Shown in pieces: positions 46,204 to 62,801 of a stretch of 64,000 bases of DNA. Each line of letters begins with the position of its first letter. The first letter of the stretch is position 1. The stretch is from an uncultured Paracoccaceae bacterium (lineage in GTDB: Bacteria > Pseudomonadota > Alphaproteobacteria > Rhodobacterales > Rhodobacteraceae). The notes beneath the pieces are model-generated. The model had not been told where the DNA came from. It worked only from the letters and a program-made list of their open reading frames with translations, and ran no database searches. The position numbers and the translations under genes were made by a program. The DNA lies in assembly GCA_947500055.1 (NCBI GenBank), contig CANMQO010000005.1, positions 62,001 to 126,000 of the forward strand. The letters run 5' to 3'.

Positions 46204-46946
46204 CGCGAGACGCTCGTGGCGATGCCACATCGCCCCTCCCGCCATCCCGTGGCACGCTTTACGGTGTCGGTGTCGGGCCGGGAGCGCCGGATCTGATCAC
46301 CTTGCGCGCCGCCCGTTTGATCGAAGCGGCGCCGGTTGTGGCCTATCCTACACTGGCGGGTGCCGCGAGTTTTGCCCGCGCCATTGCCGCAGATCTGATT
46401 GCACCGGATGCGGTTGAGATTGCGATGGATGTGCCGATGAGTGTCGACCGCGCCCCGGCGCAGGCGGCTTATGATCATGGTGCCGCGCAGATTGCGGCCC
46501 ATCTGGATGATGGTTCGGATGTGGTATGCCTGTGTGAGGGCGATCCGTTCTTTTATGGCTCGTTCATGTATCTTTTTGCCCGACTTTCAGATCGGTATCA
46601 GGTCGAGGTCGTGCCCGGCGTGACCTCTGTCACGGCTTGTGCGGCGCGTGCCCGCATGCCGCTTGCCGCCCGCAATGAACGGCTGACCGTGTTGCCGGGA
46701 CCCCTGCCTGAGGACGAGCTGCGCGCGCGTATCGAAGGGGCCGAGAGCGTTGTTATCATGAAAGTTGGCCGCCATTTGCCGAAGATCAGGGCGGTGATTG
46801 ACGGTTTGGGCCTGACGGCCACGGCGGTTTATGTGGAGCGGGCCACGCTGGAGGCCGAGGTGGTGTTGCCTTTGGCTGACGCCCCGCAGAAGGCCCCGTA
46901 TTTTTCAATGATCTTGCTGACGAAAGGGGCCGATCCATGGCTTTGA
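46200..46946 (+). CDS. cobI: Precorrin-2 C20-methyltransferase
   Basis: CobI methylates C20 of precorrin-2. The 248-residue protein shows the tetrapyrrole methylase core: LYGVGVGPGAPDLITLRAAR (about 20-39), VVCLCEGDPFFYGSFMYLF, VEVVPGVTSVTACAAR and VYVERATLEAEVV. The first about 18 residues (MTRDARGDATSPLPPSRGT) are not conserved and are encoded by a copy of the hairpin element (46211-46249). The true start could therefore be downstream. Overlaps cobJ by 10 bp. Confidence 0.94.
   Translation: MTRDARGDATSPLPPSRGTLYGVGVGPGAPDLITLRAARLIEAAPVVAYPTLAGAASFARAIAADLIAPDAVEIAMDVPMSVDRAPAQAAYDHGAAQIAAHLDDGSDVVCLCEGDPFFYGSFMYLFARLSDRYQVEVVPGVTSVTACAARARMPLAARNERLTVLPGPLPEDELRARIEGAESVVIMKVGRHLPKIRAVIDGLGLTATAVYVERATLEAEVVLPLADAPQKAPYFSMILLTKGADPWL
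46211..46249. repeat. Hairpin element (copy D) within 5' end of cobI
   Basis: GGCGATG-cca-CATCGCC (46218-46234) is followed by CTCCCGCCATCCCG, sharing the core CCCGCCATCCC with copies A-C. The sequence is coding for the extra N-terminal residues of CobI. Confidence 0.5.
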
Positions 46947-48745
46947 AACCTGTTGTTCTGGCCTTGTCCCGATCGGGCGAGGCTGTGGCCCATCGTGTGG
47001 CGGCCTGCCTTGGTGCGCAGGTCCATGGTCGTGAAGGCCGTGTTGATCAGGCGGATGCTTTTTTTCCTGATGCGTTGGACCGTACCCGCGATTTGTTTGC
47101 CGCTGGTGTGCCTGTGATCGGGGTCTGTGCCTCGGGTATCCTGATCCGTGCCGTGGCCCCATTGCTTGCCGATAAGCTGGTGGAACCACCCGTGATCTCG
47201 GTTTCGGATGATGGGGCGGTTGTTGTGCCGCTTTTGGGTGGGCATCGTGGTGCGAACCGTTTGGCGGCTGACATCTCGCAGGCTTTGGGTGCGGTTGCGG
47301 CGGTAACAACGGCGGGCGATGTGGCGCTGGGCGTGGCGTTGGATGCGCCGCCTGCTGGCTGGCGCCTGGTCAACCGGTCCGACGCCAAGGGTGCTATGGC
47401 GGCACTGTTGTCAGGCGGTGGTGCACAGGTACAGGGTGACGCCGATTGGCTGGTGGACCTGCCGGAAGGTGATGCGGTGCGCCTGTCATGTACAATGGAC
47501 CGGCTGGATGATCTTGGCCCCGCACATCTGCAATTTTCCCCGCAGTGTTTGACCCTTGGTGTGGGCTGTGCCCGTGATTGCGACCCGGCAGAACTGGCGA
47601 CACTGGTGGATGACGTATTGGCCGAGGCTGGCGTTGCACCGGAGGCGGTGCATTCGGTCAACACGATTACATTGAAGGGCGATGAGCCCGCGATCATTGA
47701 TCTTGCCGTCCGTCTGGACGCCCCTTTGCGCCTGTTCGAGGCCGCGGTGCTGGATGCAGAGACCCCGCGGCTGGCGAACCCGTCAGATGTGGTTTTTGCC
47801 GAGGTCGGCACACATGGGGTGGCGGAAGCATCCGCATTGGCGCAAGCCGGGCCCGCTGGACGGTTTCTGGTAGAAAAGCGCAAGACGGCAAATGCCACAT
47901 GTGCGCTGGTCATTGCACCCGATCCGCTGGTGGAGTTGCGTGGCCGTGCGCGTGGCCGGTTATCTGTCGTGGGGATTGGTCCGGGGCAGGCGGCTTGGCG
48001 CACACCGGAGGTATCAAAACTGGTCGCCCAGGCCGATGAGCTGGTGGGCTATGGTCTATATATTGACCTACTGGGACCATTGGCCCTTGGCAAGGAACGG
48101 TCGGATTTTCCGTTGGGTGGGGAAGAGGACCGGTGCCGCTATGCGCTGGAGCAGGCGGGCAAGGGCAAAAATGTCGCCCTGGTCTGTTCGGGCGATGCCG
48201 GGATTTATGCCATGGGTGCATTGGTGTTTGAATTGCTGGATCGTGGCCCGGACCAGATGGGTGTTTCCGCTGCGGCGCGCCGGGTCGAGGTGGTGTGTTC
48301 GCCGGGTGTGAGTGCCTTGCAGGGGGCGGCGGCCCGGGCAGGTGCGCCGTTGGGGCATGACTTCTGTGCGATTTCGCTATCCGATTTGCTGACCCCGCGC
48401 GAGGATATCGTGAAGCGGTTGAAGGCAGCGGCAGAAGGCGATTTTGTGATTGCCTTTTACAATCCCGTGTCGATGCGGCGACGGACATTGCTGGCCGAGG
48501 CCCGCGAGATTCTGCTGCGACACCGTCCCGGGGCGACACCGGTGATGCTGGCATCGTCATTGGGCCGGCCCGAGGAGCATGTCCGTTATCGCCGTCTGGA
48601 TGAGCTGGAAGTGGATGAGGTGGATATGCTGACGGTGGTTCTGGTGGGTTCGTCCCATTCGCGGTTGGCGCAATTGGGTGAAGGGCCGCGTATGTTCACG
48701 CCGCGTGGTTATGCCCGCAAGATTGATGGAGATCTGGCTGGGTGA
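46937..48745 (+). CDS. cobJ: CbiG-CobJ fusion (cobalt-precorrin-5A hydrolase / precorrin-3B C17-methyltransferase)
   Basis: The 602-residue protein joins two domains. Residues 1-~330 match CbiG: GVPVIGVCASGILIRAVAPLL, PVISVSDDGAVVVPLLGGHRG and the C-terminal CbiG part LGVGCARDCDPAELA, with VNTITLKGDE. Residues ~335-590 match CobJ: RLSVVGIGPGQAAWRTPE, VGYGLYIDLLG, CSGDAGIYAMG, SALQGAAARAGAPLGHDF and FYNPVSMRRR. CobJ contracts the ring at C17. CbiG deacylates a cobalt-precorrin in the anaerobic route, so its use with aerobic enzymes is notable. The last codons come from hairpin copy B. Confidence 0.93.
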   Translation: MALKPVVLALSRSGEAVAHRVAACLGAQVHGREGRVDQADAFFPDALDRTRDLFAAGVPVIGVCASGILIRAVAPLLADKLVEPPVISVSDDGAVVVPLLGGHRGANRLAADISQALGAVAAVTTAGDVALGVALDAPPAGWRLVNRSDAKGAMAALLSGGGAQVQGDADWLVDLPEGDAVRLSCTMDRLDDLGPAHLQFSPQCLTLGVGCARDCDPAELATLVDDVLAEAGVAPEAVHSVNTITLKGDEPAIIDLAVRLDAPLRLFEAAVLDAETPRLANPSDVVFAEVGTHGVAEASALAQAGPAGRFLVEKRKTANATCALVIAPDPLVELRGRARGRLSVVGIGPGQAAWRTPEVSKLVAQADELVGYGLYIDLLGPLALGKERSDFPLGGEEDRCRYALEQAGKGKNVALVCSGDAGIYAMGALVFELLDRGPDQMGVSAAARRVEVVCSPGVSALQGAAARAGAPLGHDFCAISLSDLLTPREDIVKRLKAAAEGDFVIAFYNPVSMRRRTLLAEAREILLRHRPGATPVMLASSLGRPEEHVRYRRLDELEVDEVDMLTVVLVGSSHSRLAQLGEGPRMFTPRGYARKIDGDLAG

Positions 48746-48786
48746 CGCTGTTTCGCTTGCGCGAAATGCGCCCCACCCGCCATCCC
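48731..48786. repeat. Hairpin element (copy B) at cobJ end
   Basis: GGGTG (48740-48744) pairs with CACCC (48774-48778), with GGC/GCC outside and an inner arm TTTCGC-ttgc-GCGAAA. The base changes against copy A keep pairing (compensatory). It encodes the last codons of cobJ (DLAG and stop) and runs to near the cobM ribosome site. Confidence 0.75.
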
Positions 48787-48798
48787 GGAGGAGTTTAG

Positions 48799-49566
48799 AT
48801 GACGGTTTACTTTATTGGCGCGGGTCCGGGTGATCCTGAATTGCTGACCCTGAAGGCGGCGCGCATGATCGGGCAATGCCCTGTATGCCTTTATGCGGGA
48901 TCTCTGGTGCCTGCGGAGGTTGTCGCCTGTGCACCGGAAGGCGCAGTGGTGATGGACACCGCCCCGATGACATTGGATGAGACCCATGGCGTGATCATGG
49001 ATGCCCATGCCAAGGGGCAGGATGTGGCCCGGGTGCATTCAGGTGATCCGTCGCTATACGGTGCGATTGCCGAGCAGATCCGCCGGTTGAAAGCCGATGG
49101 GATCGACTATCAGATCATCCCCGGTGTGCCTGCCTATGCCGCAGCAGCAGCGGCACTGGGCACAGAATTGACCGTACCGGAAGTTGCCCAGTCGATCATC
49201 CTGACCCGGATGTCGATGAAATCGACCGGCATGCCCGAAGGTGAGACGCTGGAAAACTTCGCCCGTACCGGGGCCACATTGGCCATTCATCTGGGAGTGC
49301 GCGCCTTGCGCGAGATCGAGCGACAGCTGACCCCGTATTACGGGGCGGCGTGTCCGACGGCGGTCATCTACCGCGTGGGCTGGCCCGACCAGATGATCAT
49401 TCGCGGGACGCTGACGGATGTGCGCGAGAAGGTCCGCGCGGCCAAAATCACCCGAACTGCGCTGATTCTTGTCGGACCCGCGCTGGCCGATTCGCACGGA
49501 TTTCCCGATTCCGCGCTCTATGATGCCGCCCGCCCGCATGTGTTGCGGCCGCGTGTGAAGGCCTGA
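48799..49566 (+). CDS. cobM: Precorrin-4 C11-methyltransferase
   Basis: CobM methylates C11 of precorrin-4. The 255-residue protein has the core VYFIGAGPGDPELLTLKAAR, LYAGSLVPAEVVA, VARVHSGDPSLYGAIAEQ, IIPGVPAYAAAAAALGTEL and LTRMSMKSTGMPEGE. GGAGGAG precedes the ATG. It is the last gene of the operon; the next gene is 88 bp away and may be read on. Confidence 0.97.
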   Translation: MTVYFIGAGPGDPELLTLKAARMIGQCPVCLYAGSLVPAEVVACAPEGAVVMDTAPMTLDETHGVIMDAHAKGQDVARVHSGDPSLYGAIAEQIRRLKADGIDYQIIPGVPAYAAAAAALGTELTVPEVAQSIILTRMSMKSTGMPEGETLENFARTGATLAIHLGVRALREIERQLTPYYGAACPTAVIYRVGWPDQMIIRGTLTDVREKVRAAKITRTALILVGPALADSHGFPDSALYDAARPHVLRPRVKA

Positions 49567-50397: not shown

Positions 50398-51966
50398 CTA
50401 AAAAAGGCCCGATTTTGTGACTTCGAGCAGCCCTGACGTCCGCAAAGTGGCGACCGGGTAGGCATCACTTGCCATCAGTTTCAGCGAGAAATCCGGTTCC
50501 AGCAGCTGCAATCGTTGTAATGCATCCGCAGTTGCAGGTTCATTCCCGCGCCGAAATTCAAGGGCTGCAATAAACCGCAATGCGGGGCGATAGTTGGGGG
50601 AGTACCCATGCGCCATGTTTGAAAAGCGCAAAGCTTGGTCCAGGCGCTGCGCGCGCACAGCCGTTACCGCGCAGCGCATCAACCAGGTCGCTGGACTGAG
50701 GGCTGTAATCGGTCCCGCCCGGGCCTTGATCGCTTCTTGAAAGGCACGTTCATCGTCGCCTGCTTCGGTCAGAGCCGATGATAGACTATATCGTGACAGC
50801 GGGTTATTTGCGTCGGCCCGTTCGGCTTGCTGCGCCAGATCAAGGGCAAGGTCGACGTTTCGATTGCGGCAGGCAATCATGGACGCAACGGACAGGGCGA
50901 CGGCATTTTGCGGGTCGAGTTCCATTGCGCGCGTTGCGAACCCGGTCGCTTCTGCAAGTGTCTCAAGCGGGTCGTCCGCAAATCGTTCCAGCAACATTGT
51001 GTTCCGGATGTACGCTCTTAGTGCCAGCCTTATCGCGTCATCCTTATCGCTGTCATTCCTGTCCAGCAGAAACTCTGCCTTCATCAGCCGGTCATGTGAA
51101 AAACTGAAAACATCGCGTAAGGACAGAATGTTGTCGTAGGGATCATCGGCAGGTTTGCCCCAGCCCGCGTTCAGTATCGCAAGGGTCAACGCCCCTGACA
51201 GGGCATCAAACTGAGGTGCCAAATTGTCCAATGATCCTGTGACCGAGCGGTTCCAGATTTGTTGTTGGGTCCCACAGCGTGTGACTGTGAATTGCAGGCT
51301 GGCACGTTGGCGATTGCCGACAGCCTGACACGACAATTTCAAGGCATGTGGGTGATCGCCGACGATGGGGTTATCTTCAAAAACATGTGCCGGTACAAAG
51401 TTCCCGGCGCGTTCGGCCCCGTCACGGAGTATCATGTCGGCCAGCGCCGATGCATCAGTGTCGCCAGGCAGGGTTTTTGCGATTATCAGGGCAAGATGCG
51501 GTGGCTGTGCCTGTAATGTTGACGGCGCTTCGTTGTTGCGCCATTTGGCCGCGAAATATTGACGTTGTTCGCGTATCCAATCCTCAAATTCGGGATCGCG
51601 TATATCAAGGTCTTCGGCGAACTCGACCAGATCGGGATTGACGTGTGCGGGATCCGGGTCCAGCGCAACGCCGACTTGTTCGGGATCCAGCGCTGCCCAT
51701 CCTGAACCGGACAACACGGTATCCCGATACCGTCCAAAACTGCGCCTGATTTCAGTAAGTGCCTGTCTGAGGCTCGCGGCGCCTTGTTCGCCGCCTCGTT
51801 GGCTCCAAAGTTTGTCCTGTAGCTTGGCCCTGCTTGCACGCAGATGATGCGAGGTTCCCAATAATGCCAGCACCCCACGGCTTTTCATACTGGGAGGGGT
51901 GAGGTCCTGCAGGTTGGGTCCTGCCACGGTCACCGGACCAGCGAGATGGAGCGTGATTTTCTTCAT
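50398..51966 (-). CDS. SARP-like transcription regulator with TPR region
   Basis: The 522-residue protein has an N-terminal winged-helix domain (about 1-95) of the OmpR/SARP type: PPSMKSRGVLALLGTSHHLRASRAKLQDKLWSQRG, then SLRQALTEIRRSF. A middle part (about 150-260, LALIIAKTLPGD..LKLSCQAVG) resembles the CadC/adenylate-cyclase-linked type of regulator. The C-terminal 230 residues are TPR-like helices (AMELDPQNAVALSVAS, ADANNPLSRYSLSSALTEAG). It is divergent from the PAP2 operon, with 143 bp between, and is the natural candidate to control it. Confidence 0.78.
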   Translation of the reverse strand: MKKITLHLAGPVTVAGPNLQDLTPPSMKSRGVLALLGTSHHLRASRAKLQDKLWSQRGGEQGAASLRQALTEIRRSFGRYRDTVLSGSGWAALDPEQVGVALDPDPAHVNPDLVEFAEDLDIRDPEFEDWIREQRQYFAAKWRNNEAPSTLQAQPPHLALIIAKTLPGDTDASALADMILRDGAERAGNFVPAHVFEDNPIVGDHPHALKLSCQAVGNRQRASLQFTVTRCGTQQQIWNRSVTGSLDNLAPQFDALSGALTLAILNAGWGKPADDPYDNILSLRDVFSFSHDRLMKAEFLLDRNDSDKDDAIRLALRAYIRNTMLLERFADDPLETLAEATGFATRAMELDPQNAVALSVASMIACRNRNVDLALDLAQQAERADANNPLSRYSLSSALTEAGDDERAFQEAIKARAGPITALSPATWLMRCAVTAVRAQRLDQALRFSNMAHGYSPNYRPALRFIAALEFRRGNEPATADALQRLQLLEPDFSLKLMASDAYPVATLRTSGLLEVTKSGLF

Positions 51967-52109
51967 GGCTTTCCGGTTGTCACTGCTTGCCTGTCATTCC
52001 TTCAGGAATAAACATTTGCATCAACAGACACACCGAACCTACACTTCTTTTCGTATTGGGCGTCATTTGTCCAATTATTGTACGATAAGTCTATTTGAGG
52101 AGAACACAT

Positions 52110-53258
52110 TTGTCTTTTTTAAATGCAGAAAACGCTGAAAATGCAGAGAATGCCGAAAACGCTGAAAATGCGGAGAATGCCGAGCGCAGAGGCAGTTCGC
52201 ATGCCGGTGGTCGTGCCTCGCCGTTATTGTCAACCGCCCTGGCGCGTGCCCGCGACAGTATTGTGGGTGCGGAGGTTGTTACCGGGGTGTTGGATGGCCC
52301 AATTACGCCGCTTGACCCGGCTGTCCGGTTTTCACGTCTGTCCCCGTCCCATCGCGCCGCCGCCATCAGCCTGGAGCTGTTGAGCGATCTGGCCTATTCG
52401 CCAGCGGAACTGGCGCCCACAAGTTCGACGGTTCTTGTACGGTCGGCGGTCGCAACGGTGGATGGCGACGTGCAGGCGACATTTTCGCCGCTGGTTACGC
52501 TGAACCGCCCGTCAGATACTGATTTTGAACGTGATCTGGCCTTGGTCGCCAATTATGCGGATTTGCGTGGTGACCGGCTGGCCGAGGTGCATACCCAACT
52601 GACCGATGTCCTGTCGTTCTTTGGCTCCATCGTCTATTTGCAGCCGCAGCGCACGAAATGGTTGCTGACATTGCTGAACACTGGTCTGGACCTTGCCACC
52701 GTTGTGGCGCAGCAGATGAAGCTGGCCCTAGGATGTCCGCGACCCATCGCATTTTCCCAGCAGTTGCAGCCGATGATCCAGACCCCGGATCACGGCACTT
52801 TCCCCAGCGGGCATGCCACGCAGGCCTTCATGGTCGCCACGTTACTGAGCGAGCTGGCTGCCGGACCAGGTGGTGCCGCAGTCAAACCGGAAAGCCAGCT
52901 TTATCGCATGGCGTCGCGCATTGCGATTAACCGGACCGTGGCTGGTGTGCATTTCCCGTCTGACAGTGCGGCGGGTGCGATTTTGGGTATCACGCTGGGG
53001 CAATATCTGGTGGCCCGCGCCCGTGCTGGCGCGCAAACCGCGACCCCGCGTACATTCCATGGTGACCGCTATCATGACGATGGCGACCCACGTGATTTCC
53101 ACTTCGAGGAGTTGAACAAGCTGCTTGCCTCCGCTGAAAATGCGCCCGCCGATCAAGCGATGGCGAAGAATGGCGACCCGATCAATGTGCAGCCCGCACC
53201 ATTGCTGGGTTGGCTGTGGGAAAGGGCTGAAGAGGAGTGGGGGCAGAGATGGAATTGA
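52110..53258 (+). CDS. Soluble PAP2/vanadium-haloperoxidase-fold enzyme with N-terminal NAE repeat
   Basis: The 382-residue protein shows the full PAP2 superfamily site: Lys204 and Arg211-Pro212 in KLALGCPRP, PSGH at 232-235 in FPSGHAT, and Arg275, His281, Asp285 in NRTVAGVHFPSD. There are no clear membrane helices and no signal peptide, so it is more like soluble acid phosphatases or vanadium haloperoxidases. Residues 5-25 are seven Asn-Ala-Glu triplets. TTG at 52110, with GAGGAG upstream, is the likely start. First of three overlapping genes. Confidence 0.82.
   Translation: MSFLNAENAENAENAENAENAENAERRGSSHAGGRASPLLSTALARARDSIVGAEVVTGVLDGPITPLDPAVRFSRLSPSHRAAAISLELLSDLAYSPAELAPTSSTVLVRSAVATVDGDVQATFSPLVTLNRPSDTDFERDLALVANYADLRGDRLAEVHTQLTDVLSFFGSIVYLQPQRTKWLLTLLNTGLDLATVVAQQMKLALGCPRPIAFSQQLQPMIQTPDHGTFPSGHATQAFMVATLLSELAAGPGGAAVKPESQLYRMASRIAINRTVAGVHFPSDSAAGAILGITLGQYLVARARAGAQTATPRTFHGDRYHDDGDPRDFHFEELNKLLASAENAPADQAMAKNGDPINVQPAPLLGWLWERAEEEWGQRWN
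52122..52184 (+). repeat. 9-bp coding tandem repeat (7 Asn-Ala-Glu units)
   Basis: Seven 9-base units encode Asn-Ala-Glu. The units also form a higher 27-base order (AACGCTGAA, AATGCRGAG, AATGCCGAR repeated twice after AATGCAGAA), indicating a recent duplication. It is likely to change in copy number between strains. Confidence 0.85.
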
Positions 53259-53440
53259 ATTGGATAAAGCCCGACGAGACCGAAGCCCCGACATTTAAGA
53301 ATGATTCTTCCCCTTACGCCCATTTCTGGCTCGACCAGCATGAGCCGGTGCAGAATGTCAAAAGGCGGAGCGTGGTTGAGGTGGCTCAATCGCTGAACGA
53401 AGGCGTTGAGGATTTGATAAGAAGGGCGTTTGAAAAATGA
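53249..53440 (+). CDS. 63-residue protein between PAP2 and subtilase genes
   Basis: The protein (MELNWIKPDETEAPTFKND at its start) has no signal or membrane helix. It contains SPYAHFWLDQHEPVQNVKRR and a helical end (VVEVAQSLNEGVEDLIRRAFEK). It is not recognised. Its start overlaps the PAP2 gene by 10 bp, and its stop overlaps the subtilase start (ATGA), so it is translated with both. It might be a chaperone, inhibitor or substrate for the protease. Confidence 0.75.
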   Translation: MELNWIKPDETEAPTFKNDSSPYAHFWLDQHEPVQNVKRRSVVEVAQSLNEGVEDLIRRAFEK

Positions 53441-55236
53441 TAGCCCTTGAAACACTGAGTACGTTTTCCGGCCTTTTGCAGAACATCGGGAATTTTGCCC
53501 AGCCTGACACGATCCGGCCGGACATGGGACCTTATGACGAAGCTTTGGAGGAAGATCCAGGCACGCAGTTTCTATCTGCCGGGGCGATACCGCCGGACCC
53601 GGCGCGGGCGGCGGTCATTGGGATCATTGATGATGCAGTTCCTTTTGCCAATCAAAGGCTTACGGTTGATGGTTTGCACAGCCGTGTCGCCGCGATCTGG
53701 TTGCAGGACGGTGCTGTGACCAAGGCTGTGAATCAGGCTGTCGGTGCCGATCTGCCCCATGGGACAGAGCTGCGCGGTGCCCAGATTTCCGACATGCTAA
53801 AGGATCTTGCTGCGGGCGATCTGTCGGACGAGGACGCGATTTATCGCAAGGCCGGCGTGATCGATTTTTCACGCGGTTCGGTCCAAAGCGCCGCATTCTT
53901 TGGTAATCACGGGGCGGCTGTGGCTGACCTTGCTGCGGGTTTTCCCCCGTCTGATCCGGATGCCCGCAATTTTCCAGTTATGGCTGTTAGTCTGCCGCCA
54001 GAGGTGACCCGCGATACGTTGGGCACATTTGCGCCGGTCTATATCCTGACCGCGATCTTGTATCTGGTGCAGCGCACCCGCCGATTGTGTCGATGGCTTG
54101 AGCAGGTGCGCGGTGATGGCGTGGCTGTCCGTCTGCCGCTGATCATCAATATCAGCTATGGGATTCTGGCCGGTGCCAAGGATGGCAGCAGTCTGGTTGA
54201 GCGGTTTCAGGATGCGGTGACCCAAGCGGGCGCAACCGATATCGGCCCGGTGCATTTCGTGTTGCCGATGGGCAATCACCGACAGTCCCAAACCCATGCC
54301 GCCCTTGATACTGCCAAGGGTGATCACGTGGTCTGGGAGGCAAAACCTGACGACGCGACCCCGAGCTTTATCGAGTTCTGGGGGCCATGGCGTGACGATC
54401 CCGAGCCACCGGGCCAGTGCATGCAGCTATCCATTGCCCGGCATTCTGACGCGATGCCTGCAACCACTGGTTTCCAAAGCCATGGTGGATTTGAAAAGTT
54501 GCAGAATGGTGATGCCCCGGTCGCCCGCGCATATCTGCAGTACCGCGCCACCAATGGTGGTGGCCGGGAGGTGATCACGCTTGCGATGTATCCGACGGTG
54601 CCGGCCCAACCGGGCAGTCCCTATATACAGCCCGGTTGTTACCGCATGTCGGTTTCTTTGGGGGTGGATGCCGTGGTGGATGCCTATATCCAGCGCGACG
54701 ATTCCATTCGCCGGTTTCGTTCCGGTGGACGGCAATCGAAGTTCCGCGATCCGCGTTACCAGACCCATGATGCCGCAGGTCGCGTTCTGGCGAATGATGA
54801 CCCCGCAGCGCAGGCCGCTGTCATGCGCGAAGGGACTGTGAATGCTTTTGCCGGCGGCTCGCATCAGCTTAGGGTGGGGGGGACATTCGGTGATGAGGAT
54901 AGTGATGAGGCCGAGGTCGAAAGGGAAGTTGTACCCTATTCCGGCTTGGGCACTGATGGTCCTGCACGCGCTGTGACGGGTGATACCACAGCCCCGGCGG
55001 ATCGCAGCCGGATCAGGCCGGGTATTGTGGCCATGGGATCGCTGTCCGGCAGTCGACAGGCGGTATCGGGCACGAGTATGTCATCCCCGCAGGTGACACG
55101 GGCGCTCGCTATAAAGTTGGCCAGCGGTATTCCTATTCCACCGGTCACCCCCGCAAACATCGCGGCGATTTTGCAGGACGCACCGGTCGCGCGTACGGCC
55201 GGGCCGCAAAATACGCGGATCATCAAGAAGTTCTGA
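53437..55236 (+). CDS. Subtilisin-like (S8) serine protease without signal peptide
   Basis: The 599-residue protein has a recognisable but divergent subtilase triad: Asp65 in GIIDDAVPFAN, His158 in GNHGAAVADLAAG, and Ser547 in SGTSMSSPQVTRA, with the oxyanion Asn280 in PMGNH. Between His and Ser lies a long region (about 290-500), including an insert domain likely to shape substrate choice. No signal peptide is seen, so it is probably cytoplasmic or exported by another route. It is the third gene of the PAP2 operon and ends 16 bp from the convergent RpiR gene. Confidence 0.85.
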   Translation: MIALETLSTFSGLLQNIGNFAQPDTIRPDMGPYDEALEEDPGTQFLSAGAIPPDPARAAVIGIIDDAVPFANQRLTVDGLHSRVAAIWLQDGAVTKAVNQAVGADLPHGTELRGAQISDMLKDLAAGDLSDEDAIYRKAGVIDFSRGSVQSAAFFGNHGAAVADLAAGFPPSDPDARNFPVMAVSLPPEVTRDTLGTFAPVYILTAILYLVQRTRRLCRWLEQVRGDGVAVRLPLIINISYGILAGAKDGSSLVERFQDAVTQAGATDIGPVHFVLPMGNHRQSQTHAALDTAKGDHVVWEAKPDDATPSFIEFWGPWRDDPEPPGQCMQLSIARHSDAMPATTGFQSHGGFEKLQNGDAPVARAYLQYRATNGGGREVITLAMYPTVPAQPGSPYIQPGCYRMSVSLGVDAVVDAYIQRDDSIRRFRSGGRQSKFRDPRYQTHDAAGRVLANDDPAAQAAVMREGTVNAFAGGSHQLRVGGTFGDEDSDEAEVEREVVPYSGLGTDGPARAVTGDTTAPADRSRIRPGIVAMGSLSGSRQAVSGTSMSSPQVTRALAIKLASGIPIPPVTPANIAAILQDAPVARTAGPQNTRIIKKF

Positions 55237-55252: not shown

Positions 55253-56125
55253 TCAGGTAAACTTCCGGAAGAGCTTGGTTTGGTCGAACATGCCTTCAAG
55301 CTCTTCCATCCGGTCCTTGGTGGTGTCCCAATTCAGGTTCTGGACAGATGAAATCATCGTCTCGACCAGCAACAGTGTTGTTGCCACCGAATCCCAGGCA
55401 GAGGGTACGACGATCCGCCCGCTGAGGCTGATATCGGCGATTTGGTGCACTGGCGATCGCCACTGATCGGTGAAGAGGATGATTCTGGCCCCTTGCGCTT
55501 TCGCCATCTGGGCCAGCCGCAATGTGTTGTTTTCATAGCGCCGCATGTCGAAGATCACAAAGACGTCGCTATCCCTGGTATCCAGCAGGTAATGCGGCCA
55601 TGCGTTCGAGGTGGATTGAATATGGGTCACGTTGGGCCGGATCACCTGCATGTGCAGAAACAGGTATTCGGCCAATGTGTGTGTGATACGCCCGCCGACA
55701 ATGCAAAGCCTGCGGTCGCGGTCGGCGACCAGTGCGCAAGCGGCATCAAATGCATCAGGGTCGATCTGGGCCAATGTGTGCCGGATGTTATCGATCACCG
55801 CATCGGTGAACCGGTTGAGCATATGGCCCGATGGTGCCCCTTCGGCCCATGTGTCATGTTTGGCGATCGGGTTTTTGACCTTGGCTTTCAGTTCTTCGCG
55901 TAAAGCGGCCTGAAATTCCGGGTAACCTTTGAACCCCAGCTTTTGCACCATACGCGCAACTGTAGGGACCGAGACGCTGGCATCCTTGGCCAGGGCGGTT
56001 AGCGGACCCAGACCGGAGGCTGGGTAATTTTCCAGAATCGAATGGGCCAATTGCCGCTCTGCGCGGGTCAGCGCGTCCAGTTTTTGCTGGATCCGGTCTG
56101 CAATCGTCAGGGTCGCATCGTTCAT
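55253..56125 (-). CDS. RpiR/MurR family transcriptional regulator
   Basis: The 290-residue protein has an N-terminal RpiR HTH (about 1-80, LAKDASVSVPTVARMVQKLGFKGYPEF) and a C-terminal SIS phosphosugar-type domain (about 130-270, LCIVGGRITHTLAEYL). SIS domains usually bind a sugar phosphate, but members in amino-acid and amine operons are also known. AAGGATATG precedes the ATG. It is divergent from the following catabolic operon and likely controls it. Confidence 0.9.
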   Translation of the reverse strand: MNDATLTIADRIQQKLDALTRAERQLAHSILENYPASGLGPLTALAKDASVSVPTVARMVQKLGFKGYPEFQAALREELKAKVKNPIAKHDTWAEGAPSGHMLNRFTDAVIDNIRHTLAQIDPDAFDAACALVADRDRRLCIVGGRITHTLAEYLFLHMQVIRPNVTHIQSTSNAWPHYLLDTRDSDVFVIFDMRRYENNTLRLAQMAKAQGARIILFTDQWRSPVHQIADISLSGRIVVPSAWDSVATTLLLVETMISSVQNLNWDTTKDRMEELEGMFDQTKLFRKFT

Positions 56126-56242
56126 GGCGCATATCCTTTTGATGGAAAATATAACATATCTTCGTTCGTTGTGATATTTTTTTCAGAAATTTGTTGACAG
56201 AATCCGTTTTCGGCAAGCAGTTTGGTTTGGCAAGGGGGATGG

Positions 56243-57010
56243 ATGACGCAATTGCATGATCAAGTTGTTGAGGTGATCAATCCGGCTGGCCGGTCGTCGG
56301 TTGTGCTGGTTTGTGAACATGCGTCAGCCTTCATTCCCGCAGAATTTGATCACCTTGGCCTGCCGGAGGCTGATCGCCAATCGCATGTGGTCTGGGATCC
56401 GGGCGCGCTGGCTGTGGCCACCCGCATGTCACAAAGGTTCGATGCGCAGCTGGTCGCAGGCACTGTTTCCCGGCTGGTTTATGACTGTAACCGGCCCCCC
56501 GATGCCCCTGATGCAATGCCAGCGCAAAGCGAACAGATCACGGTTCCGGGGAATGCCGGGTTGTCGCAAGCTGATCGTGATGCGCGGGTTGCCAAATATT
56601 ACATGCCGTTCCGGGATGTGTTGACCGCGCGGATCGCACAGGCAGAATCCCCCGTCATTGTGACCATTCACAGCTTCACACCGGTCTATCACGGCCAGTC
56701 CAGAACGGTTGAGATTGGCATTTTGCATGACAGTGACGCCCGGCTTGCTGATGCGATGCTGGATTGCGCGAAGCAACACACATCCATGAATGTCGAGCGT
56801 AATCAGCCTTATGGTCCTGCCGATGGGGTCACCTACACGTTGAAAGAGCACGGTATGTCCGGTGGACATCTGAATGTCATGCTGGAGATCCGCAATGACC
56901 TGATCGCGACGCACGCGGCTCAGAGAGCCATGGCTGACATCCTGGTGGATTGGGTTGCGGACGCCTTTGCCCGGACCGGCAAAAAGGGGGATGTGGCGTG
57001 CACGGCATGA
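56243..57010 (+). CDS. N-formylglutamate amidohydrolase family protein
   Basis: The 255-residue protein shows the family pattern of a zinc-dependent amidohydrolase: VLVCEHASAFIPAEF, then RLVYDCNRPPDAPDAMP, YYMPFRDVL, VTIHSFTPVYHG and GILHDSDARLADAMLD. Family members hydrolyse N-formylglutamate to glutamate. No histidine-degradation genes adjoin it, so the natural substrate may be another N-acyl or gamma-glutamyl compound. ATG at 56243 follows AAGGGGG. First gene of the operon after the divergent RpiR gene. Confidence 0.88.
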   Translation: MTQLHDQVVEVINPAGRSSVVLVCEHASAFIPAEFDHLGLPEADRQSHVVWDPGALAVATRMSQRFDAQLVAGTVSRLVYDCNRPPDAPDAMPAQSEQITVPGNAGLSQADRDARVAKYYMPFRDVLTARIAQAESPVIVTIHSFTPVYHGQSRTVEIGILHDSDARLADAMLDCAKQHTSMNVERNQPYGPADGVTYTLKEHGMSGGHLNVMLEIRNDLIATHAAQRAMADILVDWVADAFARTGKKGDVACTA

Positions 57011-57567
57011 TGCAGGGTTATATCCGCGCGGTTGACGCCATTAATTACCGGGTTGGCCGGGTGATGATGTATGGCATCTTTGTTCTGATGGGGATCTTGC
57101 TGTGGTCCTCGATCAGCAAGACCTTTTTCCTGCCTTCCCTTTGGACGCTGGAAATGGCCCAGTTCGTGATGGTGGGGTACTACATTCTTGGCGGTCCATA
57201 TGCGGTTCAGATGGGATCACATGTGCGGATGGATCTGCTTTATGGTGGCTGGTCGATACGCCGAAAAGCGTGGTTCGATCTGGTGACTGTGCTGTTCCTG
57301 ATGTTCTATCTGTCGGTGCTGCTATACGGGGCTGTTGCATCGACCGCCTATGCGCTGGGCTATTTTGGCAGCGCGCCTTTCAGCTTCTTCGGTGATCTGA
57401 TCACGGGAGCAGAGGAGATCGGTCGCATGGAGCGGTCATCCTCGGCCTGGCGGCCCTATATGTGGCCGATCAAGACGGTGATGATTGTCGGATTGTTCCT
57501 GATGTTGCTGCAATGCCTGTCTGAGTTATTCAAGGACGTGCTGCGTCTGAAAGGTGTGTCCGCCTGA
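56998..57567 (+). CDS. TRAP transporter small permease subunit
   Basis: The 189-residue protein has four membrane helices, as usual for DctQ-type subunits: FVLMGILLWSSISK, then MAQFVMVGYYILGGPYAV with the conserved GSHVRMDLLY (DctQ motif), VLFLMFYLSVLLYGAV and the last helix near 155-178. GTG at 56998 with AAGGGGG upstream is favoured; ATGs at 57007 and 57010 are alternatives. Overlaps the amidohydrolase gene end and is coupled to the large permease (TGATG). Confidence 0.9.
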   Translation: MHGMMQGYIRAVDAINYRVGRVMMYGIFVLMGILLWSSISKTFFLPSLWTLEMAQFVMVGYYILGGPYAVQMGSHVRMDLLYGGWSIRRKAWFDLVTVLFLMFYLSVLLYGAVASTAYALGYFGSAPFSFFGDLITGAEEIGRMERSSSAWRPYMWPIKTVMIVGLFLMLLQCLSELFKDVLRLKGVSA

Positions 57568-58892
57568 TGCCGTATGAGATGATTGCCACGTTGATGTTTT
57601 CCACCATGATGCTGATGCTGTTGACCGGCCAGCGGGTGTTTGGGGCGATTGGATTTGTTGCGGTGATCGCGGCGCTGCTGCTTTGGGGTGATCGTGGCGG
57701 GTATGATATCGGTTTTTCAGCGGCGATGAAGCTGATGAACTGGTATCCGCTGCTGACCCTGCCGATGTTCATTTTCATGGGCTACGTGCTGTCGGAATCA
57801 AAGATTGCCGACGATCTTTACCGTATGTTCCATGTCTGGATGGGCGGGCTGCGCGGCGGTCTGGCCATTGGTACCATTGGCCTGATGGTGCTGATTTCAG
57901 CGATGAACGGGCTGAGCGTCGCGGGCATGGCAATTGGTGCGACGATTGCCCTGCCTGAACTGCTCAAGCGGGGATATGACAAACGGATGGTGACGGGGGT
58001 TATCCAGGCGGGATCATCGCTTGGCATTCTTGTGCCGCCCTCTGTTGTGCTGGTTCTTTATGCGATGATTGCCCGGCAACCGGTGGGCCAGTTATGGCTG
58101 GCAGGTGTCATTCCCGGGCTGATGATGGCGGCGATGTTTGTGGCCTATATCGCCATTCGCTGCAGGTTGAACCCTGATCTGGGCCCGGTTCTGAGCGCGG
58201 ATGAACGCGATATGCCACGCGCCGAAAAGCTGCGACTTTTACGGGCGGGGCTGCTACCGCTGATCATCTTTGCGGTGATGATGGTGCCCTTTGTGAATGG
58301 CTGGACGTCGCTTGTGGAAAGCTCTGCCATTGGTGCATTGGCGGCCTTTGCCGCGGCCATCATCAAGGGGCGGATGAACCGGGAAGTCTTTGAAAATTCG
58401 GTGCGCAACACGCTGGGGATCACATGTATGTTCATGTGGATCATCCTTGCCGCCCTTGCCTTTGGCGCGGTGTTTGACGGGCTGGGCGCGGTGAAGGCGA
58501 TCGAGAACCTGTTCACCGACCGGCTGAACCTGTCGCCATGGCTGATCCTGATACTGATGCAGCTGAGCTTTATCCTGATGGGGACGTTTCTGGACGACAC
58601 CGCCATGCTGGTGATTGTCGCCCCGCTATATGTCCCGTTGGTGGGTGCGCTGGGCTTTGACCTGATCTGGTACGGGATCCTTTACACGATCACGACGCAA
58701 ATCGCCTATATGACACCGCCCTTCGGCTATAACCTGTTCCTGATGCGCGCGATGGCCCCGCCCGAGATTGGTTTGCGCGACATCTATGCCTCGATCACGC
58801 CTTTTGTGCTGGTCATGGTGCTGGCGCTCAGTCTGGTGATGATTTTCCCCGGACTGGCCACATGGCTGCCCGACTATGTTTACGCAAAATGA
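57567..58892 (+). CDS. TRAP transporter large permease subunit
   Basis: The 441-residue integral protein has about 12 helices. Typical motifs are LPMFIFMGYVLSES, GGLAIGTIGLMVLISAMNGLSVAGMA, LGILVPPSVVLVLYAMI and the C-terminal half repeat with LILMQLSFILMGTFLDDTAMLVI. It forms the sodium-driven channel with the small subunit; the substrate is set by the binding protein. TGATG overlap with the small-permease gene. Confidence 0.95.
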   Translation: MPYEMIATLMFSTMMLMLLTGQRVFGAIGFVAVIAALLLWGDRGGYDIGFSAAMKLMNWYPLLTLPMFIFMGYVLSESKIADDLYRMFHVWMGGLRGGLAIGTIGLMVLISAMNGLSVAGMAIGATIALPELLKRGYDKRMVTGVIQAGSSLGILVPPSVVLVLYAMIARQPVGQLWLAGVIPGLMMAAMFVAYIAIRCRLNPDLGPVLSADERDMPRAEKLRLLRAGLLPLIIFAVMMVPFVNGWTSLVESSAIGALAAFAAAIIKGRMNREVFENSVRNTLGITCMFMWIILAALAFGAVFDGLGAVKAIENLFTDRLNLSPWLILILMQLSFILMGTFLDDTAMLVIVAPLYVPLVGALGFDLIWYGILYTITTQIAYMTPPFGYNLFLMRAMAPPEIGLRDIYASITPFVLVMVLALSLVMIFPGLATWLPDYVYAK

Positions 58893-61433: not shown

Positions 61434-62801
61434 ATGATTACCTGTACCTCGCCGATCGACGGATCGGTTTATGCCGAAAGGCCTGTGCTGACGGCGTCAG
61501 AGGCGCAAGACGCCGTTGCCCGCGCCAAGGCCGCGCAGGCCGATTGGGCGGCGTGTCCGCTGGCCGAGCGGATCGCGCTTGTCATGGATGGTGTCGCCAA
61601 GGTTGGGGCGAAGAACGATCAGATCGTGCCCGAACTGGCGTGGCAAATGGGCCGCCCTGTCCGCTATGGTGGCGAATTTGGCGGCTTTAACGAACGTGCC
61701 ACATATATGGCTGACATCGCCAAGGACGCGCTGGCCGATATTGTGATCGAAGATAGCGATGCCTTTCGCCGGGTGATCAAGCGGGTGCCACATGGTGTCG
61801 TACTGGTCGTGGCCCCCTGGAACTATCCTTACATGACGGCCATCAACACCGTCGCCCCGGCCCTGATTGCGGGTAATACGGTGGTGCTGAAACATGCCAG
61901 CCAGACCCCCTTGGTCGGCGAACGTATGGTGCAGGCCTTTCATGCTGCCGGTGTGCCTTCGGACGTGTTTCAGAATGTGTTTCTGGATCATCAGACGACG
62001 TCTGACCTGATCACTGCGAAATCCTTTGGCTTCGTGAATTTCACCGGTTCCGTCGGGGGCGGTCAGGCGATTGAACGTGCCGCGGCGGGCACATTCACCG
62101 GTATCGGGCTGGAACTTGGCGGCAAGGATCCCGGCTATGTCTGTGATGACGCTGATCTGGATGCGGCTGTTGATACGCTGATTGACGGTGCGATGTTCAA
62201 CGCGGGGCAGTGTTGCTGCGGGATTGAGCGTATCTATGTTGCCGAGCAACATTTTGATGCCTTCGTGGAGAAGGCGGTAGCCATTGTGAACGGCTACAAG
62301 TTGGGCGACCCGCTCGACCCTGAAACGACACTGGGGCCGATGTCGCATAAACGCTTTGCCGCTGAGGTACGGACGCAGATAGAGGAGGCGGTCGCCGAAG
62401 GCGCAACCGCGCATATCGCGACCTTTGCCGAGGATGATGGCGGCGCCTATCTGACCCCGCAAATCCTGACCAACGTGACCCACGACATGCGGGTGATGCG
62501 TGATGAAAGCTTTGGCCCTGTTGTCGGCATCATGCCGGTCAAGGATGATGCGGAGGCGATTAAGCTGATGAATGACAGCCATTTCGGGCTGACTGCGTCG
62601 GTCTGGACGAAAGACGCCGCGCGTGCTGAGGCCATCGCAGATCAGATCGAAACCGGCACCGTGTTCATGAACCGCGCCGACTACCTCGATCCCGGCCTGT
62701 GCTGGACGGGCTGCAAAGACACCGGGCGCGGTGGTGGTCTGTCCCTGATCGGCTATCACAACCTGACCCGTCCCAAATCCTACCATCTGAAGAAGGCTTA
62801 G
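61434..62801 (+). CDS. Aldehyde dehydrogenase family protein
   Basis: The 455-residue NAD(P)-dependent dehydrogenase shows Glu227 in GLELGGKDPGY, catalytic Cys261 in NAGQCCCGIERIYV and the C-terminal FGLTASVWTKD..RADYLDPGLCWTGCKDTGRG. Its substrate class cannot be told; a gamma-glutamyl amino aldehyde fits the operon, with the alcohol dehydrogenase immediately downstream (3-bp gap). Slightly shorter than usual (about 480). Confidence 0.93.
   Translation: MITCTSPIDGSVYAERPVLTASEAQDAVARAKAAQADWAACPLAERIALVMDGVAKVGAKNDQIVPELAWQMGRPVRYGGEFGGFNERATYMADIAKDALADIVIEDSDAFRRVIKRVPHGVVLVVAPWNYPYMTAINTVAPALIAGNTVVLKHASQTPLVGERMVQAFHAAGVPSDVFQNVFLDHQTTSDLITAKSFGFVNFTGSVGGGQAIERAAAGTFTGIGLELGGKDPGYVCDDADLDAAVDTLIDGAMFNAGQCCCGIERIYVAEQHFDAFVEKAVAIVNGYKLGDPLDPETTLGPMSHKRFAAEVRTQIEEAVAEGATAHIATFAEDDGGAYLTPQILTNVTHDMRVMRDESFGPVVGIMPVKDDAEAIKLMNDSHFGLTASVWTKDAARAEAIADQIETGTVFMNRADYLDPGLCWTGCKDTGRGGGLSLIGYHNLTRPKSYHLKKA

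Follow-up and report, generated by a model that had tools for sequence, protein, structure and literature searches.

An uncultured Paracoccaceae locus belongs to a conserved three-gene module in which the repeat unit of a PAP2-fold enzyme is associated with the TPR half of its partner regulator

The locus described here occupies positions 50398 to 55236 of a 64,000-nucleotide stretch of DNA from an uncultured Paracoccaceae bacterium (GenBank assembly GCA_947500055.1, contig CANMQO010000005.1, forward-strand positions 62,001 to 126,000; hereafter the window). It encodes a 522-aa regulator (REG, 50398..51966, minus strand) with a winged-helix-like N-terminus, a TolB-like middle and a tetratricopeptide repeat (TPR) C-terminus; a soluble PAP2/class A acid phosphatase-like enzyme with an intact active-site motif (PAP2, 52110..53258, plus strand); and a 599-aa subtilase (S8, 53437..55236, plus strand). 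These genes form a near-obligate conserved three-gene module. The PAP2 protein consists of a few residues followed by a tandem array of one short unit and then the enzyme body; in the window, this N-terminal tail is (NAE)7 (52122..52184, plus strand), and the kind of unit is associated with the TolB-like/TPR half of REG, not with S8 or the winged helix. The reading that we prefer, at a probability of roughly 0.55, is a new class of signalling module in which a reiterated peptide of two to five residues labels an enzyme as a barcode, and the TPR groove of the partner regulator reads it; barcode and groove would change together, giving many orthogonal switches, with a Csp-like protease to reset or fire them.

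That these three genes occur together in almost all loci examined puts the set far beyond chance. REG, PAP2 and S8 are found together in all eight plasmid neighbourhoods opened first and in four further Phaeobacter ones, and all three are present in 67 of 69 loci, which comprise the window, 8 plasmids and 60 regions chosen by S8 (taken from the S8 match list, weak matches left out). The two exceptions are L074, with S8 only, and L045, in which remnants of the three genes are fused in one open reading frame (ORF) with RTX-like sequence adjoining; REG is split in L064 and L098 and cut by the contig end in L054. A scan of genome contigs with the PAP2 alignment confirmed 518 loci, and in the 80 of them that were listed and analysed REG is present in 80/80 and S8 in 79/80, the missing S8 corresponding to a contig end (REG and S8 are in pieces in L115, as is S8 in L169). 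The module is likewise found in 60/60 further loci from the order, remote ones included; S8 is fragmented in L230, and the REG of L222 is broken in two. In a subsequent set of 60 regions, it is present in all (54/54) that remain once six duplicates of training modules are removed. The sequence-only reading, a first interpretation of the window made without database searches, held that its proposed unit would fall if the genes proved scattered in other genomes; on the contrary, they remain linked in hosts of different orders and in several orientations. The arrangement and direction of the genes vary among loci, and the linkage is therefore kept by selection or joint transfer and not as one inherited operon.

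The hosts are Alpha- and Betaproteobacteria, among which the distribution is patchy. Of 295 genomes of the family, counting the window's own, 68 contain S8 relatives; so do 36 plasmid records, among them ones from Rhizobium, Bosea, Caballeronia and Paraburkholderia. Matches to the PAP2 profile occur in 112 of 390 genomes from the order, 7 of 385 sampled from the class, 15 of 398 sampled from the phylum (own family included) and 9 of 22 genomes from the genus. A genome may hold up to three modules, mostly with different units: among 18 genomes with two or three modules, the units differ in 23 of 24 within-genome pairs (the exception is L264/L265), which fits insulation between modules and is also expected from the rarity of equal units. 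In L073, two complete modules with different units (GS and SAY) lie with their S8 ends facing.

At a threshold score of 6 or more, arrays are found in 147/148, 59/60 and 53/54 PAP2 proteins of three batches. In the first count, L045 is dropped (low score), L097 is degenerate, and L171 is counted with a score inflated by masked bases, seven WVA copies being visible; the array-less protein of the second batch, L230, has two HAK copies only. Among 191 non-redundant modules (L098 and L230, with no array by the threshold, the masked L171 and 14 identical bodies were left out), there are 91 units when rotations are counted once, including NAH, NSF, GGV, GWT, HEG, GQ and GGGGA. Most are tripeptides, the period being 3 in 175 modules, 4 in 10, 2 in 4, 5 in 1 and 6 in 1 (degenerate), and arrays contain 3 to 20 copies. 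Such arrays occur in 0/151 S8 ORFs and 1/153 REG ORFs. The stretch encoding (NAE)3 at PAP2 is the single one in the genome assembly, and none of 24,208 other ORFs scanned in the loci (those overlapping PAP2 left out) carries the unit of its own module, and the idea of unit tags on other locus genes was dropped; 50 arrays were met in these ORFs, some of them masked bases. In the AlphaFold2 (AF2) model, the tail of the window protein has no confident structure (predicted local distance difference test, pLDDT, <50 for residues 1-34). The PQG arrays of L304, L305 and L307, from three genomes, depart from homogeneity in that each contains one PQT at a similar distance from the end, which looks inherited.

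The identity of the unit is kept by selection at the protein level. Across 18 disjoint ortholog pairs (65-97% body identity) with 400 array codons, 182 synonymous and 0 nonsynonymous differences are observed, and 65 amino-acid differences are expected over the same codons at the rate of the PAP2 body. This comparison requires equal unit and length and is fairer than counts within arrays (1747 synonymous and 34 nonsynonymous, 21 of the latter from masked bases in L171), which lean to homogeneity because run-finding penalises mismatches. Adjacent copies use the same codon in 902 of 3252 cases (27.7%), compared with 1386 (42.6%) expected from codon usage, and fewer than expected in 121 of 139 arrays; neighbouring copies with identical DNA amount to 50 of 1078, where simulation gives 100 (sd 10). 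The codon-sharing analysis left out L045, L097, L098, L171 and the duplicates L099, L100, L138, L142, L167 and L177. Given the synonymous divergence and codon avoidance, DNA slippage alone was discarded as the origin of the arrays. The unit is shared by 9/9 pairs above 95% body identity, 7/30 at 65-70% and 35/2090 at 40-45%, and in one genus TGV, AGV and SGV all occur as units among proteins with 67-74% body identity, one TGV array including a single AGV. How arrays can be replaced as a whole while synonymous divergence persists among their copies poses an evolutionary puzzle of its own.

In a comparison of 605 module pairs, identity beyond that predicted from the PAP2 body rises by 6.75% in REG and by 0.2% in S8 when the unit is shared. 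When disjoint pairs are analysed by region, the gains are +8.0 for REG 151-325 and +7.8 for REG 326-490 (median permutation p <1 in 60), the latter region containing the TPR motifs (50497..50991, minus strand; registers at residues 355, 389, 426 and 460), and no same-unit gain is present in the winged helix, the linker or any S8 region. S8 was accordingly discarded as the reader of the tail. In divergent modules, where the winged-helix end of REG lies next to the array, REG 151-325 gains 7.7 (p 0.02) and REG 326-490 gains 8.0 (p 0.01), with -1.4 for the winged helix; physical linkage is thus an unlikely cause of the TPR association, since the gain falls in the TPR half and not in the nearer winged helix.

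The columns of REG with the strongest association in the training set include several in the TPR motifs. V434 ranks first, S397 second and M363 sixth, and these are position 9 of three consecutive motifs; in the hold-out, V434 ranks second of 498. The concave TPR positions 2, 5, 9, 12 and 13 score above the others (position-set p 0.0005, for a set chosen after the top columns had been seen). According to PMC1261162, positions 2, 5, 9, 12, 13, 33 and 34 are the most variable in TPRs, and 2, 5, 6, 9, 12 and 13 contact the ligand. The 34-residue autocorrelation of the column scores is uninformative (r 0.13 at lag 34).

Two residue rules were set down in advance of fetching the new loci; the phasing of the new units was coded after these units had been seen and before their groove residues were. 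Both apply to modules with S461, F401 and period 3, so that 19 of 53 hold-out modules are scored. Under the first rule (R1), an aromatic unit goes with a small residue at 434 and an aliphatic unit with Thr, units whose third residue is neither aromatic nor A/V/I/L (TAM) being left out; it holds in 25/26 and 38/49 training modules and in 8/8 and 8/10 hold-out modules (16/18). Under the second (R2), Gly at unit position 1 goes with Phe363, which is otherwise absent, ambiguous small-residue units being left out; the counts are 45/50 and 28/29 in training and 13/14 and 5/5 in the hold-out (18/19). Fisher tests on the hold-out give p 0.001 for R1 and 0.0005 for R2, uncorrected for phylogeny and with relatives of training modules included. 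Independent pairs were taken from a FastTree tree built on S8 and the PAP2 body for 102 modules (training and hold-out), on which the unit changes at least 49 times. R2 changes in step in 9.1 of 12 independent pairs, is opposed in 0 and shows no difference in 2.9 (median p 0.004). Post hoc, acidic NAE of the window and NAD of L101 accompany R367 within the window clade, and NAQ, NAH and NAK accompany other residues; HGE occurs with R397 versus QHG with Q397, and HAE of L319 with R367. Many even-period modules (for example GS, GGNA, GGGQ, GGAT and GGGF) share N363, W393 and Y401 in REG, with exceptions, as if the register of the groove followed the period of the unit.

These patterns of covariation suggest that the TPR groove of REG probably binds the PAP2 tail as a specific ligand, each module having its own lock and key, a step that we hold slightly more firmly than the complete reading. 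Several results weigh against it, besides the late choice of the concave set. The PAP2 regions themselves gain 0.1 to 3.8 in disjoint pairs (p 0.03 for residues 35-140), and PAP2 36-140 gains 4.5 in divergent modules (p 0.07). Among co-directional modules, the gain falls to +4.1 (p 0.04) for the TPR part and to +2.4 for the TolB-like part, the latter value lacking significance (p 0.18), and PAP2 regions reach similar values (+4.9 and +3.9), so part of the same-unit signal may be shared ancestry. In the hold-out, which comprises pairs containing one or more later-fetched modules, the concave set receives modest support (p 0.039), with M363 ranked 64th and S397 giving nothing (z -0.5), and positions 33 and 34, which are on the PMC1261162 list but outside the tested set, score low (0.28 and 0.18). 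On the tree, R1 has seven independent pairs, of which 3.6 are in step, 0 opposed and 3.4 without difference (p 0.125). R367 is missing with acidic HEG, KEG, GWE and GYD and with NAD of L289, and SGW with T434 breaks the pattern. Additionally, the roles given to S8 and PAP2 below come from family knowledge only.

REG was called a SARP-type regulator in the sequence-only reading, a label also present in the NCBI name of the L031 homologue ("SARP family"). SARP regulators consist of an OmpR-type winged helix followed by a BTAD domain. The window REG has weak TPR matches only and no BTAD match, and none is found in the relatives from L031, L033, L034 and L046; the label is thus too loose, and REG as a SARP regulator is rejected. 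Among these four relatives, the L033 protein alone matches Trans_reg_C (E=4e-14), together with TPRs, and the L034 protein has a nucleotidyl cyclase domain before the TPR part, so the output domain, which in the window is winged-helix-like (residues 1-95, 51682..51966, minus strand), seems exchangeable and the TPR half retained. The middle region, for which no library match is obtained, we take to be TolB-like from sequence patterns. REG resembles CadC/HilA-type regulators in its winged helix, and the L033 protein matches CadC at 67 bits and HilA/EilA at 60 bits, below the respective cut-offs of 400 and 589; HilA has a TPR-type C-terminus besides its winged helix. The partners, the tail and the cyclase variants set the module apart from these regulators.

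PAP2 matches PF01569 (E=8.5e-15) and has the K-x6-RP, PSGH and R-x5-H-x3-D motifs (52719..52964, plus strand) in addition to the fold match, which places it in the PAP2 superfamily. The residues K209, R216, H240, R280, H286 and D290 (numbered from 52095) are invariant in 60 aligned sequences, and a C-terminal tryptophan, W375, is conserved at 90% or more. Its start is very probably TTG 52110, which follows the Shine-Dalgarno-like GAGGAG (52097..52102, plus strand) by seven bases, and not the ORF start 52095; the relative L101 has ATG at the matching position. The solved structures nearest to the AF2 model (pLDDT 88.5) are soluble class A acid phosphatases (7f17, E=6.7e-6), and a vanadium iodoperoxidase is more distant (4usz, E=2.3e-3). 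The sequence motif of vanadium haloperoxidases is also that of phosphatases. PAP2 shares with both groups a soluble fold and the full motif, but differs from them in its repeat tail, an extra N-terminal part, W375 and no apparent signal peptide.

S8 matches PF00082 exactly at the cut-off (E=1.3e-4) and presents the Asp/His/Ser triad in a subtilase fold, as expected of Peptidase S8; Asp65, His158, Ser547 and Asn280 are invariant in 54 aligned sequences, the window included. The intact active sites of both enzymes, S8 without an apparent signal peptide and PAP2 without membrane helices (judged by inspection and by the closest soluble structures) all agree with the sequence-only reading. The predicted S8 model (pLDDT 88.6) matches clostridial CspB, CspA and CspC (E=1.7e-21 to 4.3e-15), the next chain following at 1.6e-3. 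The best match, 4i0w (E=1.7e-21, TM 0.53/0.66, 16% identity), spans the beta-rich insertion before the catalytic Ser that S8 appears to have in common with the Csp subtilases, and S8 relatives also have an N-terminal extension. Unlike those subtilases, S8 has hosts that are not spore formers, other partners and a sequence only 16% identical; the Csp model NF040809 gives 15.3 bits for the window S8 and 35.2 bits for that of L034, versus a cut-off of 1250. CspB contains a jellyroll insertion, and its prodomain remains attached and occludes the active site (PMC3567191). S8 may, by analogy, be a site-specific protease under tight control.

The module is best read as a three-component switch, probably located in the cytoplasm. 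A tentative mechanism, which we rate clearly below groove binding itself, is that binding of the tail couples PAP2 to REG and sets the output of REG (a DNA-binding domain or a nucleotidyl cyclase, according to the module), after which S8 switches the complex. The many identical copies would permit groove binding in any register, or allow one tail to gather several REG molecules. The Csp-like S8, perhaps held inactive by its own N-terminal region, would cut the tail or REG after a signal, so that the enzyme is freed and the output of REG changes; freed PAP2 would then act on a phosphate substrate (or on a halide, with vanadate).

A possible, if somewhat unlikely, role that is compatible with the preferred reading is that of a stress or anti-phage unit, with S8 or PAP2 as effector and REG and the tail as sensor. 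Patchy distribution, plasmid carriage and several modules per genome, mostly with different units, speak for it, and protease-activated nuclease pairs are known in defence (PMC12799240). These pairs (Hachiman/AVAST nuclease-protease, canu) also encode a protease with an enzyme (PMC12799240), but they involve trypsin- or caspase-type proteases and nucleases and have no tail code. Against such a role, none of the four locus proteins (0/4) matches the PADLOC models and S8 relatives have no match in the phage collection, on which ground a link to phages was dropped.

In RNPP quorum sensing, a small gene for an exported propeptide stands beside the receptor, and in Rap-Phr systems receptor-peptide pairs vary together. 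A pheromone version of the module, which we consider unlikely, would have S8 free tail peptides, perhaps exchanged between cells, that are sensed by the TPR part of REG, with the units as pherotypes. The co-occurrence of a TPR regulator, a protease and a hypervariable short peptide, as well as the link between unit and TPR half, would be explained, and short peptides are bound in the TPR groove of Rap receptors (PMC3601965). However, the peptide of the module is a reiterated tail fused to an intact enzyme without an apparent signal peptide, and the unit is associated with no region of S8. No RNPP-type exported propeptide gene is seen, the unit being the N-terminus of PAP2 and absent from the other ORFs scanned, and among the neighbour clusters no export or import gene appears as a constant part of the module. 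The module further differs from RNPP systems in its other DNA-binding domain or cyclase and in its proteobacterial hosts.

It is improbable that the array is the recognition substrate of S8, with unit diversity tracking the specificity of the protease. An intact protease is indeed encoded side by side with the repeat, but the same-unit effect is negative in all S8 tests by region and +0.2 for the whole protein, and the top S8 columns are weaker than the REG columns. Just as poorly placed, and if anything a shade more doubtful, is a neutral low-complexity linker produced by replication slippage, the TPR association being residual phylogeny. Tandem arrays arise easily, related modules share units, the copy number of NSF varies between Phaeobacter species (5, 6 or 7 in five plasmids of three species), and PAP2 regions also exhibit some same-unit effect. 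The absence of nonsynonymous differences beside 182 synonymous ones, the avoidance of equal codons by adjacent copies, and the near-absence of such arrays from S8 and REG are contrary to neutrality, as is an association that peaks in one half of one protein, divergent modules included, with R2 holding in independent pairs. Least probable of all is the proposal of the sequence-only reading that a haloperoxidase or phosphatase and a protease mature a modified peptide: the PAP2 fold includes vanadium haloperoxidases, and in 15 of 16 cases a haem-peroxidase-like ORF is found no more than 400 bp from the module, but the closest solved structures are class A acid phosphatases and no precursor or biosynthesis genes are recognised among the largest neighbour clusters.

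The four genes of the window are where the sequence-only reading placed them, and the tight coupling that it described is borne out: PAP2 and the ORF for a 63-aa protein (53249..53440, plus strand) overlap by 10 bp, this ORF and S8 overlap by 4 bp, and REG is divergent. That reading overlooked the (NAE)7 array and the link of the tail to the TPR half of REG. When all four genes are followed across genomes, as it proposed, REG, PAP2 and S8 remain together; gene order is not constant, nor is the presence of the 63-aa protein. The latter, with a loosely conserved end LxxLIxRAF, is a clade-specific accessory outside the general module, similar ORFs being present in 23 of 123 loci listed, all from the window's own Paracoccus/Litoreibacter-like clade by manual reading. 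The divergent promoter region between REG and PAP2 (51967..52109, no strand) is similar in the two close relatives aligned and hardly conserved in two others, so the alignment is uninformative outside close relatives.

Several other genes neighbour the modules. The cluster of haem-peroxidase-like ORFs (for example L051:5592-7169 and L219:2035-3750; two members scanned match An_peroxidase) possibly encodes an accessory enzyme. A protein of about 480 aa (L076:8995-10494) and its relatives are no more than 400 bp away from the module in 16 of 19 cases, with no Pfam or NCBIfam match in the one member scanned. A cluster of RTX-type proteins (L317:2023-4161; the one scanned is a serralysin-like metalloprotease) is near modules in 20 loci, 9 of them within 400 bp. 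In the window, cobalamin biosynthesis genes (46937-49566) precede the module, and genes for an RpiR-type regulator and a TRAP transporter (55253-58892) follow it, as named from their translations.

The sequence-only reading knew no named system with this gene set, and no description of such a module was found in open-access full text, subscription papers and other preprints being outside this scope; none is given in the parts of PMC12419801 and PMC12799240 that were covered. A widespread module may thus have been without a description in that literature. With no fewer than 91 repeat units and TPR grooves that vary along with them, it would constitute a natural library in which the choice of peptide by a TPR could be tested directly, and the module is a possible source of orthogonal peptide-receptor pairs.

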